Of a stretch of 64,000 nt of DNA, positions 2,686 to 58,600 are shown one piece after another. The position numbers and the translations under genes were made by a program. Source of the stretch: Caenorhabditis elegans (lineage: Eukaryota > Nematoda > Chromadorea > Rhabditida > Rhabditidae); NCBI RefSeq assembly GCF_000002985.6, contig NC_003281.10, positions 6,448,001-6,512,000 on the forward strand. Reading direction: 5' to 3'. The notes under the pieces were generated by a model that searched no databases, was not told where the DNA came from, and saw nothing but the letters and a program-made list of their open reading frames with translations. How positions within the stretch are numbered: position 1 is the stretch's first letter; the number at the start of each line of letters is the position of its first letter.

Positions 2686-3352
2686 CTTTCTCTGAACTGT
2701 AAGCTCTAATGTTTTCCCGAATTTTACCATCTTCAGATAAATTCTTATGGTTGCTATACCGGAAAACGGAATATACTCGTAAAAAAAGATTAATGTAGCA
2801 AAATTTATGGATTTTAATTGTTTTCAAAATGAAAAATTGAGATTTGCACGCTGATAATGTTTTCCGATAGGGATGGAAACGATTTTAGCGTTAACCAGTC
2901 ATTAAAGTAGGTTTCCAACTCGCACCTCATGTACACCACAAAAATGAATAATTCAGGAAAAAATGGGCGATCAACGAGAAATTTACAGAAGAATTAAAGA
3001 TATTAAAGGCATTTCGTAGTGGAACAAGTGAGGAGATTTTCAGGTTTCAATGAAAGGAAAGAACAAGGGACTTTTCAAAAGTCAACAGGAAAGGTACAGA
3101 ATTGGATACTCACGAGATCCAGATTATCATAAATGAGCACGTTATTACGGCTCGTTATTGAGATTTGTTTCAGGTTTGATTCGCTGTGAGAATGAGAAAA
3201 GGCGGTTGAAAGAGACGAAGTAATGAGAGGATTGGGCACGAGTGCCGTGGAAAATATGAGAAAATGAAGGGAATTACAGTAGTATACTCGTGAAGGTAAA
3301 TGAACATTTGAAATGGATTGAGCAGATCGAAGAGATGTTGTGGAGCAACATA
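2686..3352. other. Spacer between set-1 and the AVL9 homologue
   Basis: About 670 nt that should hold the set-1 3' UTR and the AVL9 5' region. No ORF here has usable splice sites or a recognisable product. Confidence 0.5.
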
Positions 3353-4356
3353 TTATGTGTTCACAAGCCATGGATTCTTGGCAATCGTCTCTGCTGAACG
3401 ATCTCCATAATCGTAGAGAAGCTCTTCTCCTTGTGCGATTTGACGCCTGGCGACGAGAATCAGGTGATGCGACCCATCGATTTCCACCACCTGGAATGTT
3501 TAGTTTTGGAATTGTTATTTACATTTTTTTAATTTATCAAAGACTTTCTTAATAAATTTCAAATTTTGAAATGCTCACTTTCGTTTTGAGATTCGGCCTT
3601 AACACGGAATGATTGATGAGTCGTCCTTTCCATGGAGATTCTTTTGTCGCATCGATACACCATTTTTTATTGTTGTGCTCAAAAAAGTACATGTAGGATC
3701 CGATTTCCTCATCATTCGAATATTGTTCTTCTATCACTTTTGCTTCCGAGTACTCCATCATAACACCTAGAATACTTTTTAAAAACAATATTACAACAAT
3801 TATCTGTGTTATCTACATACCTCTGTATTCGACAACAAAGTCTCCTTTTTCAAAGTTAACTTTCGTTCGAATTCCTCGCCCCTTCACAACATCTTTGTAC
3901 ACTTCAAGAAGTCGTTCATTAGTCCCCTTGAGTACGGTATCGCGAAGAGCATGTTTAGCTTCATCGCTAATTTGCTTGCTCGTCTTCCGATTACTTCGCC
4001 GCACTTGGAAGAATTCTGTGATTTTATGGTTTGAGACATCTTTCACCGACACTCCTTTTCTGAAAGAAAAACTATTTGGAAATTGAAGTTTTCAGCTTGG
4101 ACAATTTCTGTGAATATGTTGTGAATTCAATTAGAAATATTGAAGTTTTTAAACGTTCTATTACAATCCCTCTTGTCACTAATCAATCATACCTGCTCCT
4201 TGTGTTTTTCGACGGTGTCATTCTTCCTGAAGATGAAGAGTGTGAAGCCAAAGACGATGGATTTTCGGAGTTCTCAATATCACTAGATGGTGACGCTGCT
4301 GCGGCACGATCCTTTCGCATTCTACTCGTTGCCAGCTTCTTCGCGGCAACTTTCAT
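3353..4356 (-). CDS. set-1: SET-1, histone H4K20 monomethyltransferase (SET8/PR-Set7 type)
   Basis: Exons 4193-4356, 3821-4059, 3579-3766 and 3353-3490 give 242 aa, the size I recall for C. elegans SET-1. The N-terminal 60 residues are Ser/Lys-rich and probably disordered. The SET domain fills the C-terminal half: the V-E-Y-R-G-V strand, C-I-D-A-T-K, the R-L-I-N-H-S AdoMet-binding turn, and E-L-L-Y-D-Y-G-D-R, which contributes the catalytic tyrosine. There are no post-SET cysteines, as in SET8. SET8 enzymes put one methyl group on H4 lysine 20 in chromatin; in worms this is tied to X-chromosome dosage compensation and cell division (established knowledge). A splice acceptor lies 14 nt before the ATG and may receive a spliced leader. 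The gene is divergent from jhdm-1. Confidence 0.96.
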
Positions 4357-47680: not shown

Positions 47681-50177
47681 ATGTCATTTCTCAACACAAA
47701 TCGCTTCCACTGGTTATGTTTTTTCCTTTGGCAATTTGCACTTTTCTTTTGTTGCCAGCAAATTTTTTCGGTAGGAAAATAATTGAAAATTGCCTTGTAA
47801 TCTTGTTTTTTTTCAGATTTTCTACAATTTCAGTCCAGGCCTGTCTTGTGATGATCCCAGTTTTCAGTTTTCAAAACCGAAATGCAAGCTTTCAAAGTAA
47901 GTTTGCTCTGAAATTTGGGTTTTTCGGACTACGCGGAACATCTTTTTTTCAGATCAGAAATATGCTCAGAACTCACAGCAAATTGCTCTAAAATAGTCAT
48001 TGAGGAAGCTCCTTTCCACTCAATGGTTCAGGATTTTAAAATGTTTTGTGGAACAAAAGCTTATGATGCTGCATGGGTAGCCACTATTCAATTCATTGGA
48101 GTTCTTATTGGAGCTATTACTTATGGACATTTGGGTGATCATTTTGGTAGAAAACCTGTTTCATTTTTTGGAATCTCTGTGGGAATTTTGTTCGGAGTAG
48201 CTTCAGGTTGGCATTTTGAGAAAATTAGAAAGTATTACTTCAAAACAAAGTTGAAGATTATATTCTTATCAACCTTTCTATGAAAGCAAATTATTCAAAA
48301 AGTATTCGAATAAGGCGGTGGACAGCTATTGAGATTTTCCCGCGTGGGTTCGAATCTCATCCTGATCGAATACTTTTTGCAATTCTTACTTGCTATGAAA
48401 CTATTGAACCGAAATTTCTAACACTACAATTTCGAAAAAAATCGACTTTCACAACTGCATTCTTGATTATGGAAATTATTATTTTTCTCTTTTTCAGGAT
48501 TTGCTCCATCATGGGAAGTTTTTGCCGCTTTCAGATTCATCGTTGGTACTTCGATTGCTTCAATTCTCATTGTATTCTATGCATATATTCTGGAGTTTAT
48601 TGAGCCTGAGCAAAGAGTTTTCTTGAGATCTTTCTTTAATTGGGTAGGTTTTCATTAACCAGTAGTGCGACTTTCAGGCACTTCTCGAAAAATAGATAAA
48701 TATTATTTAACTGAATGCAATAAATCTTATATACAATATTTAGGGTTATGCTCGTCTAGTTTTCACTCTTGCTTGCTTTATCTGTGGCTACTGGAGATCT
48801 GCTGCAATTGCCACATCACTTCTTTCACTCCCAATTCTTCCAGTTCTTTTAATCTTACCAGAGTCCCCGAAATGGTGAACCCTCACTTTTCTTAATTAAT
48901 TATATTTTTTAATCTGAAGTTTTAGGTTTAATACCAAAAAGAGATTTCGAGACGCAAGGGCGGCTGAGAAACGTGTTGCATGGCTATCAGGGATCCCATA
49001 CGTCAATGACGAAGATCAAAGTATAGAAATATCTGAAAAACTAGAAGAGAAGAGTACGAAGATCTATACAATGAAAGATTTATTCACTTCCTGGACAATT
49101 GCATATCGTACAATTGTGGTCGGATCTTTGTGGTTCTCTACAAGTTTATCAGCGTTTGGTTCTGACTTGAATTCTGGGAATTTGGCTGGAAATTTTTATT
49201 TGAGTCAGTTTGTGTCCGGTGCGGTGACCGCATTTGCAAAAATTGTGAGTGCATTTTGAAGTTATTAACTAAAATGTAAAGTAATGATCACATTATTTTC
49301 CTAGTTGTACGTCTCACTTAAATTTAGAATTGAAGCTGTGTCTCAAATAGACTCAGAAATAGTGAACAATATTTTCGGCCGAACTTTGAATGTTTTATAG
49401 CACTTTTGTTAATAATTATTTCAGTTTGTATTCCTATTGGATACCTATGTTCCATCATTTGACCGTCGGCGTCTACACCAATATCCTCAAATTGCCATGA
49501 TTTTATGTTATTGTGTTATCATGGTTCTGATGATTCTTCCTGAATCAGACTGTGGAAGTCAAGGATCTCGCGATTTGGCTAGTAAGTTTGCCTGCAAATT
49601 AAGGTTTCCACTGTGAGCAGGCTCGCCTACATGCCTATTTTATTTTGGGTGCAATTAGAAAAAAGATTGTGGTTACAAACAAGTCCCTTGTTTTTTAGAG
49701 TTCTACAAATAATGTATTTTAGTCATCATAATTAACATCATCGGTGTTTCCTTCATTGAGATCACATGGGATGCATGTTATCTTGTAGCAGTGGAATGTT
49801 TCCCAACTAAAATTAGAACTATTGGTAAGTTAGTTTTGAATCTTTTAACATCAAATTATCTATTTTCAGGTATCGGTACATGCTCCCTACTTGCCAGAAC
49901 CGGAGCCTTACTTGCTCCTCAAATGGCTTATCTCTCTGATATCTATCGACCAGCTCCGTACGCAGTTGTTTGCTCAATTGGTACAATTTCCCTCCTGATA
50001 TCTTGTGTTTTCCTACCAGACACAAAAGGAGTTGATTTGGCAGCACTTGATCCAACTGAAGAACTTGATTACGATAGAAAGAAGAGCATGACGGAGAATA
50101 TTGTGATTCAGAGAAAAAGAACAGGAACTTTGGCGGCTGCTAGATTATCAATTGTTGAAAATAATATAAATGCATAA
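47681..50177 (+). CDS. MFS organic-solute transporter, SLC22-like (copy 1)
   Basis: Exons 47681-47770, 47817-47896, 47953-48206, 48498-48643, 48744-48874, 48926-49244, 49425-49581, 49723-49824 and 49870-50177 give 528 aa in consistent phase. About 12 membrane helices are expected. Motifs: a large Cys-bearing first loop (F-S-P-G-L-S-C-D-D-P, E-I-C-S-E-L-T-A-N-C-S-K), the MFS signature G-H-L-G-D-H-F-G-R-K-P, L-P-E-S-P-K-W after helix 6, and L-P-D-T-K-G-V-D-L after helix 12. These are typical of the organic cation/anion (SLC22) family. The substrate is unknown. A TTTTCAG acceptor is 2 nt before the ATG. It is a close tandem paralogue of 52605-59625. Intron 3 (48207-48497) carries a tRNA relic. 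Confidence 0.9.
48296..48379. repeat. 14-bp inverted repeat framing a tRNA relic
   Basis: CAAAAAGTATTCGA (48296-48309) and TCGAATACTTTTTG (48366-48379) are perfect reverse complements on either side of the tRNA-Ser remnant. The second MFS gene has only one such flank, CAAAAAATATTCGA, ending at about 53559. Confidence 0.85.
48311..48368 (+). pseudogene. tRNA-Ser relic (3' part) in MFS copy 1 intron 3
   Basis: The 58 nt match the 3' 63 nt of the split tRNA-Ser(GCU) at 53557-53619, read on the plus strand here but on the minus strand there. The T-arm with GGGTTCGAATCTC and the 3' acceptor strand CCTGATC are kept. The anticodon arm is damaged by a 5-nt deletion that removes the GCT anticodon context. 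The first base of the match, TAAGGCG, is exactly the D-loop breakpoint at which copy 2's tRNA is interrupted. No 5' half is present. It cannot encode a tRNA. Confidence 0.85.
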
Positions 50178-52604: not shown

Positions 52605-55600
52605 ATGTCGTTTCTGAATATTAATCGCTTTCATATTTTGTGTTTTTTTTTATGGCAATTCGGACTTTTTTACGCTTGCCAGTTGATTTTTCCGGTTGGT
52701 GTTTAAAATAGTAGGCTAGTTTTAAAATAATTTTATTCCAGATTTTCTACAATTTTCATCCAGGGCTTTCATGCGAAGATCCAGGATTTAACTTTTCAAA
52801 GCCTAAATGCAAACTTTCAAAGTAAACCTCTTGCTTTTGCGTGTAAGATATCAATTATCATTTTATAGAGTGGAAATATGCACGGAGCTTACAGCAAATT
52901 GTTCCAAGTGGCACATTGAGCCAGCTCCTTTCCACTCAATGGTTCAGGATTTTAAAATGTTTTGTGGAACAAAAGCTTATGATTCTGCATGGATTGCAAC
53001 AATTCAATTCATTGGAGCACTTGTTGGAGCATTGGTTTATGGTCATTTAGGAGACCATTTTGGTAGAAAACCAGTTTCGTTTGTTGGAATCTCGATTGGA
53101 ATCATTTTCGGAGTTGCTTCCGGTAAGAAGTGATTTGTCACTAATCTGTAGTTATAAGCATGGGCTCCATGTTGTTTTTGTTGAATGAGAGAGCACATGC
53201 AGGCTTACACTAGATACACTATGCTTACACTAGAGAGAGTACATTGCTTCAATTTCTTGAATTTTTGACTTAGAAAATCTAAACTGTGTAATCACCAACC
53301 CTCTGATATTGAACCACCATAAATGCAATAGACGGCCACATAGGCGGTAATAGGCAGCCACTATAGGCAGGCAAGCAGGAGGTGGGAGCATCTTCAAACG
53401 ACCGATAAAACTCCAGTTTTAATACACCAAAAGTAGAACAATATCTAAAATATAGTTTTTCGAATTTTAAAATTGAACAATCTATCCACGATGTAATTTC
53501 AACCTCCTTGCTCCAAGATCATAGTTAAATTGTGCTCCAAAATTTCAAAAAATATTCGATCAGGATGAGATTCGAACTCACGCGGGAAAATCCCAATGGA
53601 TTAGCAGTCCATCGCCTTACACAGGTATACCGCGACATGCGAGCAACTGGTGAATAACGAACGAACAGCCGCTAACACGCGAATATCTGTTCAATTACTG
53701 ACGAAAAACCGCAAACATGCGAAAAACTGATCAGTACCGGACGAATGATTTTTGCTTGATTTTGAGAAGAACCGCTTCCGGTGAAGATTGCGCGAAAGTA
53801 AGATAAGTGGTTGAAATGGGTGACAAAATATTTTCAGCAAACTTTTTCGAACCGGGACACACGAATTTTTGGTGAATATCCGGCCGCCAACCGACGAGCG
53901 TCGGATGAACCCAGTAGTAGCCTACGAAGAAGTTGGGAGGGAATAGATACTAACTAGTTCAACTGATGAATCCTCTCTTAGTGCAAGTTGAACAAGTCTG
54001 TTCGAGTCTTTTTTTTTGAAATTTCACTTTCACGATTTTTTTAAATTTCACAAGTATGGTACGATTTTAATATTCATAAGGGTACCCCCTTATGAAAAAA
54101 AAATTTTGGTATTTTTTGGTATGAAAATTTTTTTCCCAAAATTTTTGAAAATTTCTTGATTGTGTAGAAAATGTATATTTTAGTATTTTTCACAGTTTTT
54201 ATGGCTCAATCACACTTCTGGGCAAAAAAATACAACAGTCAATTTCGCTTGTTCATAGAAAGTGAGTACTTCCAAAGTGTTCTAGCTCCGCAGGCAGCTA
54301 AAATATGAAAAACTTTTTAATTAGAAAGTTATTAGGAATGAAGTGATTGACAAATTACATAATGTATCTTTTTGCCATCTTGCATGGCTGAGCAGGTAGG
54401 AGCACCTAATTATGAGTCAAATATCACTAATTTTGACTGATGATATCTCCGTACTTTGCACAGAAAGCAATAAACTATTAAACATGAAACATGTTCCATA
54501 ACAAACTAAACAAGTTTATAGTTGACAATTTTTTGATATCTTGCTTGCCCGATGTGGCACATGACTTCGAAAAACTGTCATAGTAGGTAGATCAGATAGA
54601 GGAATAGAGGTTTTTACAGTTTCTTAGTTTTCGAAAGCACCACATTTGGCAAGAAAGTACATAGATACAATTAGGGAAACATATTTTTACAATATCTGAT
54701 GAATATTTGACAACTTTTGAAAAAAAGTTTTGGTTTTTCTTGAAAAAAAATCCATAGGGTCCCCCCTTATGAAAAATTTCTAAAATTTTTTCGAAATTTT
54801 TTTTTGAAAACTTTTTATAATTTGATCAGATGTTATAGAAAAATGTAAATTTGATTGTTTTTTTTTAGTTTCGATGTTCAGAGCACGATTTTAGACGAAA
54901 ACCTTTGGTTCAGTAGAATCCCTAAGTTCAAAAAACCCATTTCCTTTGGATGCGTATATCTTTGTTGAAAAATTTTTTCTGACAAAGTGATCAACTACAA
55001 AGTTGTTCATCTTAATCTAAAGTACAACTTTGTAGTTGATGGTATTTTTTCAAAAAACTTGATGGCCGAGATATGAACAGAAAAAGACGAAGAAAATACA
55101 GGCATGAAAGTGCCGCAATTAACACAACTTTATCTCGACCATCAAATTTTTTGAAGAAATATCATCAACTACAAAGTTGTACTTCCAATTAAAATAAACA
55201 ACTTCGTAGTTGATCACTTTGTCAGAAAAAATTTTTCAACAAAGATATACGCATCCAAAGGAAATGCGTTTTTTGAACTTAAGGGTTCCACTGAACCCAG
55301 GTTTTCGTCTGAAATCGTGCTCTGAACATTGAAATTAAAAAAAAAACAATCAAATTTACATTTTTCTATAACATCTGATCAAACTATAAAAAGTTTTCAA
55401 AAAAAAATTTTCGAAAAAATTTAGAAATTTTTCATAAGGATTTCCCTATGGATTTTTTTCAAGAAAATCCAAAAATGTTTTTTTTTTCAAAAGTTGTCAA
55501 ATATTCATCAGATATTGTAAAAATATGTTTCCCTAATTGTATCTATGTACTTTCTTGCCAAATGTGGTGCTTTCGAAAACTAAGAAACTGTAAAAACCTC

Positions 55601-58600
55601 TATTCCTCTATCTGATCTACCTACTATGACAGTTTTTCGAAGTCATGTCCCACATCGGGCAAGCAAGATATCAAAAAATTGTCAACTATAAACTTGTTCA
55701 GTTTGTTATGGAACATGTTTCATGTTTAATAGTTTATTGCTTTCTGTGCAGAGTACGGAGATATCATCAGTCAAAATTAGTGATATTTGACTCATAATTA
55801 GGTGCTCCTACCTGCTCAGCCATGCAAGATGGCAAAAAGATGCATTATGTAATTCGTTGACCACTCTATTTCTAACAACTTTTTAGTTGACAAGTTTTTC
55901 ATATTTCAGCTGCCTGCGGAGCTAGAGCATTTTGGAAGTACTGACTTTCTATGAACAAGCCAAATCGACTGTTGTATTTTTTTTGCCCAGGAGTATGATT
56001 GTGCTATGAAAACTGTGGAAAATACTAAAATATACATTTCCTACACAATCCAGCAGTATTACAATTTTTTGGGAAAAAAAAAATTTCCCAAAATTTTTTC
56101 ATACAAATTTTTTCCTAAATTTTTTTCATATGGGGCCCTTATCAAAATTTTAAAATTAGTGGAAAATATTTTTAATTAAATTTTTATTGAACTCAATTTT
56201 TTTTCAATTATTTGTTGGTTTCAATCACAAATCACATTTACGACTCTAAGTGATTTTTTCTTTTCTACGACTTCAATATAAGAGCGAGAAAGCATTTCAA
56301 AAGAAGCTCCAAACGCAGAAGACAACGGCACTCCGAAATAACGGTTGCGCGCCCTCTTTACCGTAAATCCTCCTCATTTTCGAAATTATTTTTTCACAAT
56401 TTCTTTTTCTTTCTCTTCGATTTTTCATAGTTTTCTTCACCAATTCTTTGATTTTTTGGCAAAAATAATTATTTTCCGTAAATATACTCGTGTTTCAGCA
56501 TTTCCGACGTTGAGGCGTCGATTCATCCGCGGATCCGACACGGAATCCATCGCAACTGCTTTTGACACTGATGCCAAGTAAGTTGCTGCTATTTTGATAT
56601 TCTGATTTTATTAACTCGATTTTCAGCCAAACGATCTGGATAATTCTTCTCGGTGCTCTTCCATCCGATTGCTCGCTTCCATGCTACAATTAAAGACCGG
56701 AAGTCGGAAATTTGTGCTCAATTTATCAATGTAATCATTAATTTTTTAACCCAAAGTTTTATCAACTCGAATTTTCAGAATTAGCAGCACACTCCCATCC
56801 AAACTCCAGAGACGTCTAAAGTTTATATGAAATCTCTCACCGGAGTTGCTGTTTGCCAAGCATCTCAAATTGTGGCTCGATTCGATTTTTCCGATGATGA
56901 AAATCCGCCAAACGCTCAACGCCGGCATTGAGCCTCAATTGGATGAACCGGAAAGCCCGCCGAGAATGAACGACGTTATTGATTGGAAAACTTGGAAAAC
57001 GGTTGGTTTTGTTGATAAAATATTCGAAAAGTTCCTGGATTCTCGATAACCAACGATTATTTTTCAGAGAAAATCCAAGATCAGCTTGTCATAATCTCAC
57101 TTTTAACCGTCATCGTCAAGTAGCCGCGACAGTTGCACCGAAATCGTCTCTAATTCATCACACTGGATCTGGAGATGGATGCAATCCCAATTTGTGAATC
57201 TCCGAATGCGACTCGCCGAGCAACAGTCAGATGGGACAGAATAATGTGATCGACGATGCTCCACCACCAACACGCTCACGTGGACTGTGATATTTCAACT
57301 GGACGATTATTCATCACGTAAGAAAAATAGTTGATACTTAATTAAAAGCCATTTTTTGTTTTCAGCGACTTCAACAATCACCGACTCCTGTCGCCTCGTC
57401 GCCTCGGAACGTGTCACCTACATCGACCAACCCGTCCCCATCCGAATAATTTTCTATTTTTTTTCAAATTTTATTTTATTTTTTTATAAAATAAAAATTT
57501 TTATGAACTATCAATTGTTATTAATGAACCGCAACTTTCAATATATGGCGAATAACGGGGTGGCAGCTAGCTGGGCATTCGGAGCGTCCTCATCATTTAC
57601 CGGTCCGTTTTTCGCGAGTTCTTCATCGAACAGCGGCCCGCGCCTTCACCGAAGCCATGTACCGTTTTCGCGAAATAGCGGCCCGTCACCCGACGAATAT
57701 TCACATGACGCGGTTTACCTGTGTTAACCACTCGGCCACCTGATCACGTTTAAAATGTTAACATGAATTCATGGGGTTTTGTTTGTATGTAACTCTCTGT
57801 TTCTCTGTGTCTAACTTTTGTTGTCAAACTTTCCCAGTACTGCTGTCATATGTAGAAGGGTTTTTCAGCCTTGCTTCTTCCTAGAAATGCCGAGGTCTAG
57901 AATATATCAAACTATGCGAGTAGCCACTCGAAGAATGTGTTTCAGGATTCGCACCATCATGGGAAGTGTTTGCCGTGTTGCTATTTATATGTGGTACATC
58001 AGTTGCATGTATCATGATTGTCTTCTATGCCTATATTCTGGAATTTATCGAACCTGAGCAAAGAGTCTTCTTGAGAACATTTTTCAATTGGGTTCGTTAC
58101 AATAAACCAGATCTTGGAGTAATTATGGGCTTCCAGGGATATGCTCGCTTAGTGTTCACCTTAGTCTGCTTCATTTGCGGTTATTGGAGATCAGCAGCAA
58201 TTGCCACGTCACTACTTGCTCTGCCAATACTCCCAGTGCTTCTGTGGCTTCCCGAATCTCCAAAATGGTAAGAAGAGATCACTGGCTATTCTATTTACAT
58301 TTTCAGGTATGCCACCAAAAACCGATTCCAAGAAATGAAAGAAGCAGAAAAGAAAATTTCATGGCTCTCGGGAATTTCATATGTCGAACGAGAAGACAGA
58401 CGAACCGAAAAAATTGAAGAAAAGGACACGAAAGTGTATACGATTCGAGATTTATTCAGTTCTTGGCCAATTGCGTACAGTACAATTGTTGTTGGATCCT
58501 TGTGGTTTTCGACAAGGTCCATACAATTTTCAGCTCTCGTTTGAGCAAAAGGGGTGCTGAAAATGAAAAATTGTTGTCCTTTCCTTTTTGATTCCTATCA

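Follow-up and report, generated by a model that had tools for sequence, protein, structure and literature searches.

Mobile elements that home to tRNA genes are already known among retrotransposons and, among DNA transposons, in the fixed-site Dada group. Ty3 of yeast is reported to use TFIIIB, and TRE5-A loses its targeting when the B box is mutated so that TFIIIC no longer binds (PMC5911963). Kojima and Jurka distinguish protein-guided elements, which sit near their targets, from Dada elements, which occupy specific positions within the target and probably read DNA; Table 1 of that 2013 paper contains no nematode (PMC3706591). The Dada transposase has a DDE triad and zinc fingers. Here we describe an element bounded by terminal inverted repeats (TIRs) that interrupts a tRNA-Ser(GCU) gene in a 64,000-nucleotide (nt) stretch of Caenorhabditis elegans DNA (C3:6448001-6512000; hereafter the window, in whose coordinates positions are given unless another contig or locus is named), together with its relatives in the rest of the genome. 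They form a group of tRNA-gene-targeting mobile elements, here TIR transposons, that is broader than the window case, and we hold with high confidence that transposons with these related ends target the 5' part of tRNA genes. The group is intermediate between the described systems, lying inside its target as Dada does, yet at scattered positions.

A tRNA-Ser(GCU) gene split by a TIR element

The window element occupies 53620..57723 (4104 bp), and we saw no transposase in it. Its left TIR, CACAGGTATACCGCGACATG (53620..53639, plus strand), and its right TIR, CACAGGTAAACCGCGTCATG (57704..57723, minus strand), located by repeat comparison and pattern search, match at 18 of 20 positions, and a copy of the target site duplication TTA lies on either side (53617..53619 and 57724-57726); the coordinates given in the first-pass annotation of this DNA were correct throughout. 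On the minus strand, the 5' part of the tRNA gene (nt 1-22, including one TTA copy) lies at 57724..57745 and the 3' part, comprising the remaining D arm, the anticodon, the variable and T arms and the 3' side of the acceptor stem, at 53557..53616, followed by a T-rich stretch (53549-53555). The break falls in the D-loop, as had been proposed: ARAGORN called tRNA-Ser(gct) on the flanks rejoined with a single TTA, and the rejoined 82 nt aligned without gaps to seven uninterrupted tRNA-Ser(GCU) genes of the same genome, from which they differ at two variable-arm positions with the pair preserved. These paralogues supply the empty site that the first-pass annotation had inferred. Each scores 64 bits with Rfam RF00005 (gathering score 29), a score that belongs to the intact paralogues, the rejoined 82 nt being judged by alignment to them. 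Because ARAGORN returned a tRNA at every duplication length tried at this site (k = 0 to 4), its calls do not fix that length, which is fixed by the gap-free alignment of the rejoined 82 nt to the intact paralogues.

In the window as it stands, neither ARAGORN nor Rfam at gathering scores found a tRNA; at a lax Rfam threshold, the unjoined window gave the tRNA 3' half at 19.5 bits (E 1.7). The rejoined RNA folds as a cloverleaf of -28 kcal/mol (z -1.5), with 16 of 200 shuffles equally good, and its folding energy is unremarkable. Since at least seven intact tRNA-Ser(GCU) copies exist, loss of the split gene is probably tolerated.

Related elements in the C. elegans genome

Relatives were sought across the genome (100,286,401 bases in 7 contigs) with 508 bp from the left end and 234 bp from the right end of the window element, and a pattern search for the end repeat that allowed up to three mismatches gave 68 matches, compared with 7 for the reversed pattern. 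Most of these 68 ends sort into three groups, namely family A, with ends CACAGGTAWACCGCGWCATG and near variants, to which the window element belongs, and two families related to it, B (CACAGGTAAAGCGCCACAGG, CACAGGTAAACCGCGTCAGG and variants) and C (CACAGGTAACCCGCGACAAG and variants). The window element is a member of a transposon group with CACAGGTAA, and the prediction that other elements in the genome would share its ends was borne out by these searches. Both flanks were read for 12 family A elements (window included), three of family B and one of family C, giving 16 two-ended elements, and a single flank for three of A and one of B, so that 36 of the 68 end-repeat matches were covered altogether. 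Two family A elements, L067 and L069, align over the whole window element (93% and 90% respectively), and other copies are shorter or have different interiors.

Target sites in tRNA genes and tRNA-like sequences

Sites were located via the transposon ends and not via tRNAs, and flanks were joined with the duplication kept once before tRNA calling. Six of the 16 two-ended sites gave an ARAGORN tRNA call that spans the joined flanks: Ser-GCT (window), Ala-AGC (L069), Gly-GCC (L075), Gly-TCC (L076), Asn-GTT (B1) and Ala-TGC (C21). The program was lenient here, calling the same tRNAs also at wrong duplication lengths, and even in the unjoined L069 it still called tRNA-Ala, with the transposon end substituting for one acceptor strand; intact counterparts accordingly carry more weight than these calls. 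Such uninterrupted copies, from the genome or among fetched paralogues, match across the junction at nine of the 11 joined sites compared (window, L067, L069, L074, L075, L076, L077, B1 and C21), and for the other two, L065 and L070, none was present among the best 40 candidates scored. Outside this comparison stood L066, L071, B3 and B4, and L072 entered by one flank only. A genome search for the tRNA family scored 63 of 8106 candidates, too few to place tRNAs near the ends.

Paired A and B boxes were also sought without recourse to ARAGORN, and they reached a score of at least 15 of 19 at 13 of the 16 sites, against 4 of 95 half-overlapping control windows from the same neighbourhoods (two of these four being the real intact tRNA-Gly that adjoins L075) and 16 of 3000 pieces drawn at random from the window and five loci. 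At the stricter thresholds of 16 and 17, the counts were 10/16 and 6/16 respectively, versus 2/95 in the controls at either. As to the one-ended elements, L068 faces a tRNA 3' half with the anticodon read as CGT, the end of L078 lies two bases past a perfect A box, L073 has by eye the same target sequence as L074, and the family B element adjoining L071 terminates in sequence that weakly resembles an A box.

Counted from tRNA nt 1, which in degenerate targets was located by going back seven bases from the A box, making positions there approximate, the insertions lie four bases upstream of tRNA-Asp in L070, at nt 0/1 in L065, nt 3-4 in B3, nt 8-9 in L069 and C21 (in two Ala genes), nt 9-10 in B1, nt 15-17 in L076, nt 16-17 in L077, nt 20-21 in L067, nt 20-22 in the window and in L074, and nt 22-23 in L075. 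The 12 placed sites thus span from four bases upstream to nt 23, about 27 nt, and none of the 12 lies in the anticodon, the variable arm or the T arm. L066 has an altered left end, so its exact position is not assignable, and its target starts like that of L067. Family A alone is found in Ser, Ala and two Gly tRNAs called by ARAGORN, at nt 8 to 23, and its ten two-ended copies in tRNA or tRNA-like sequence are inserted in both orientations relative to the tRNA (six opposite, four the same). Thirteen of the 16 two-ended elements stand between exact duplications of 2 or 3 bp, a 2-bp match being expected by chance alone about once in 16, and their sequence varies, AA, GG, TG, CT, GAA and ATG occurring besides TTA. 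The TTA duplication noted in the first-pass annotation therefore stands at the window site and does not hold as a family constant. The clean tRNA insertion described there is real and is one case of a pattern, since most of the other copies examined are likewise inserted near the 5' end of a tRNA gene or tRNA-like sequence.

Several targets have features of their own. That of L067, tRNA-like with A and B boxes, is uninterrupted at 35 of 40 places scored, with 98-100% identity over ~95 nt (18 of the 35 are 100% identical; for example, C1:196921-197015), and from its sequence looks like a recent Pol III (RNA polymerase III)-type dispersed repeat, perhaps akin to a short interspersed element. The tRNA-Asp adjoining L070 (right flank, C4:1463840 region and C4:1462947 side) contains a 19-nt internal tandem duplication of D arm and anticodon stem, and ARAGORN sees it as tRNA-Asp only with one 19-nt duplicate omitted. 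L071 and L072 have the same right flanks, on C2 and C3, which indicates a duplicated segment that includes a family A copy; a family B element, which sits in tRNA-like sequence near the family A copy, is present only in the C2 copy, so that the C3 copy shows its site empty.

The window also holds a relic of the same tRNA-Ser variant (48311..48368, plus strand), in opposite orientation in the matching intron of a neighbouring gene paralogous to the host gene described below. It is flanked by 13-bp inverted arms (48297-48309 and 48366-48378), and its tRNA sequence begins at nt 20, exactly with the bases duplicated at the window insertion; it may be the scar of a break at that spot. Both variable-arm changes of the split tRNA-Ser occur in the relic too, and they consequently predate the insertion.

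Interior of the elements and the host intron

The split tRNA gene and the element lie within an intron (53123..57945, plus strand) of a gene resembling sugar transporters of the major facilitator superfamily (MFS), in agreement with the first-pass annotation. The GT and AG ends were read from the sequence, and the exon open reading frame (52807-53130) has a Sugar_tr match above the Pfam cut-off and an MFS_1 match below it; a Pfam scan of the downstream frame (57966-58268) gave no match. Inside the element is a long interrupted palindrome (54128..56080), whose longest arms measure 503 nt and are 96% complementary, and a decayed gene fragment (56578..57270, plus strand) that resembles, with 85% and 74% identity, sequence that lies downstream of the kinase exons in a gene for a Myt1-type kinase on C2 (L080). 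The kinase encoded at that locus is closest to Myt1 in PDB, and we take the gene to be wee-1.3. Between the two, 56132-56517 recurs outside longer matches at 21 other places (83-97% identity), 10 of them within paired family B ends, from which it follows that the families share interior sequence.

Some other group members likewise carry host-gene fragments. Between family A end repeats, L065 has an open frame similar to the nucleoporin Nup210 (2822-3718 of that locus, 299 codons, E 1.3e-18), and L075 one for a mitochondrial carrier (2851-3162, 104 codons, Pfam E 8.3e-18). The open frames of the examined copies (nine scanned with Pfam, two compared with PDB sequences) yielded host-gene pieces or nothing, and no transposase. 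Genome searches with Pfam models gave no match for PF10551 and none for PF02992, which was taken for transposases of the CACTA/Mirage/Chapaev (CMC) elements but represents neither Mirage nor Chapaev, and which was also silent in every control genome; PF13359 (DDE_Tnp_4) and PF05699 gave 3 and 17 matches respectively, none within paired end repeats, and a DDE_Tnp_4 partner may sit in another place.

Discussion

We interpret the window element as a non-autonomous TIR transposon of the cut-and-paste kind, inserted in a tRNA-Ser(GCU) gene within an intron. The idea that the tRNA halves are parts of the transposon was rejected, given that copies are flanked by different tRNAs and that the flanks rejoin to one gene. 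For the group as a whole, the explanation that we favour, with somewhat more confidence than doubt, is that of non-autonomous TIR elements whose transposase, supplied from outside, is brought to tRNA genes by the Pol III initiation complex, with no fixed sequence being read; that targeting is tethered by the Pol III apparatus is, taken by itself, an evenly balanced proposition. What the data show directly is that transposons with related ends enter the 5' part of several tRNA types by staggered cuts of 2-3 bp. An outside transposase would, by analogy with Ty3 of yeast, be recruited by the initiation complex, either through TFIIIC bound at the A box or through TFIIIB a little further upstream, and the guide would be a feature common to the sites and not bound to one base sequence. 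The initiation complex fits because its factors occupy the region that begins shortly before the gene and reaches as far as the A box. Like Pol III-targeted elements, the 12 placed sites keep to a set range of distances from many tRNA starts, with L071/L072 and B4 as exceptions.

Several points weigh against this reading. Contact between the transposase and Pol III factors is putative, as no transposase is known, and three sites (nt 8-10) coincide with the A-box site at nt 8-13 of several Dada lineages, so that direct reading of DNA fits them as well. The threshold of 15 in the box scan was picked after the scores were seen, L071/L072 (one event copied by duplication) lie ~60 bp upstream of a weak tRNA-like sequence, and the B4 site has a B-box-like motif only. 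Several of the degenerate tRNA-like targets, uncalled by ARAGORN, may not be transcribed; L065, L066 and L070 have no exact duplication; and 32 of the 68 end-repeat matches lie outside the flanks read.

If instead the transposase itself read A-box/D-arm DNA, as thought for Dada, and cut with relaxed precision around it, no Pol III protein would be needed. Most sites are indeed in or beside the A box, decayed and perhaps untranscribed tRNA-like repeats were struck as well, and the shared nt 8-9 position of L069 and C21 in two Ala genes falls inside the site given for several Dada lineages (PMC8869645). We nevertheless consider direct reading unlikely, and favour the Pol III tether, because positions are spread over ~27 nt, duplications vary in sequence and length, and two sites, those of L065 and L070, are at nt 1 or ahead of it; in addition, Kojima and Jurka have argued for a link between short duplications and short recognition motifs (PMC3706591). 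A bias merely to open, nucleosome-poor DNA, with tRNA genes dominating the survivors since hits there are tolerated, appears quite improbable: tRNA genes are numerous and redundant, as the seven intact Ser(GCU) copies illustrate, and purifying selection clears hits in single-copy genes, but survivors should then include open protein-gene promoters, introns and intergenic gaps, and the placed sites would not be expected to be confined to the tRNA 5' end with the anticodon, variable and T arms free. That the window element landed in a tRNA gene by chance, which the wording of the first-pass annotation implied, is compatible with the window case alone and is otherwise rejected as scarcely credible, tRNA genes being well under 0.1% of such a genome, against 6 of 16 two-ended elements in ARAGORN-callable tRNAs and 13 of 16 in box-bearing sequence. 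The fuller picture of a cut-and-paste group that is tethered by Pol III, independently of any fixed DNA sequence, inserts around the A box of any tRNA type and ferries host-gene pieces to dispersed and tolerated tRNA sites in C. elegans is one that we offer tentatively, at a little short of even confidence.

Among known systems, PIF/Harbinger elements make a 3-bp TWA duplication, and membership in them was rejected, the present duplications not being limited to TWA. CMC elements have CAC ends and short duplications; the present group has ends beginning CAC and short duplications too, a weak sign of kinship, and we found no transposase to link the two and know of no tRNA preference among CMC elements. 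Like Dada, as portrayed in PMC3706591 and PMC8869645, the present elements are DNA transposons within small RNA or tRNA genes, with non-autonomous deleted copies on record in Dada, and L069, C21 and B1 lie where several Dada lineages insert. Membership in Dada was nevertheless rejected, as duplication length, end repeats and target choice by family all differ: Dada duplications are of 6-7 bp, compared with 2-3 bp at 13 of 16 sites and none exact at 3 of 16 here; Dada targets are largely family-specific and at a fixed site, whereas the present group uses many tRNA types at scattered positions; and the U6 and U1 families of Dada lack TIRs, in contrast to the matched ends of the window element. 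This specificity of Dada is not absolute, in that Dada-tV and Dada-tY insert into tRNA genes of more than one type (PMC8869645). A mention of Dada in a nematode paper proved to be only the name Daday.

With Ty3 and the Dictyostelid elements DGLT-A, NLTR-A and TRE5, the group shares the use of many tRNA genes and a position near the Pol III start, but these are retrotransposons beside the gene, ~2-50 bp upstream in the cases quoted from PMC5911963 and PMC5006619, whereas the present elements have TIRs and in most cases enter the gene itself, as far as nt 23. As TIR-bounded elements carrying host-gene pieces they also resemble Pack-TIR elements, and a term search of the text available for the Pack-TIR paper gave no mention of tRNA (PMC8277862). 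Listings of open-access literature turned up no account of such elements from C. elegans; the families may be present under other names in Repbase or Dfam.

If our reading is true, the group would represent a separate, convergent solution to tRNA-gene homing (TIRs, 2-3 bp duplications, many tRNA types, a span of ~27 nt) in a very well studied animal genome, and Pol III tethering of a DNA transposase would become testable in worms. The data also suggest that a single transposon group is responsible for some of the broken tRNA genes, and that pieces of genes are carried to tRNA loci.

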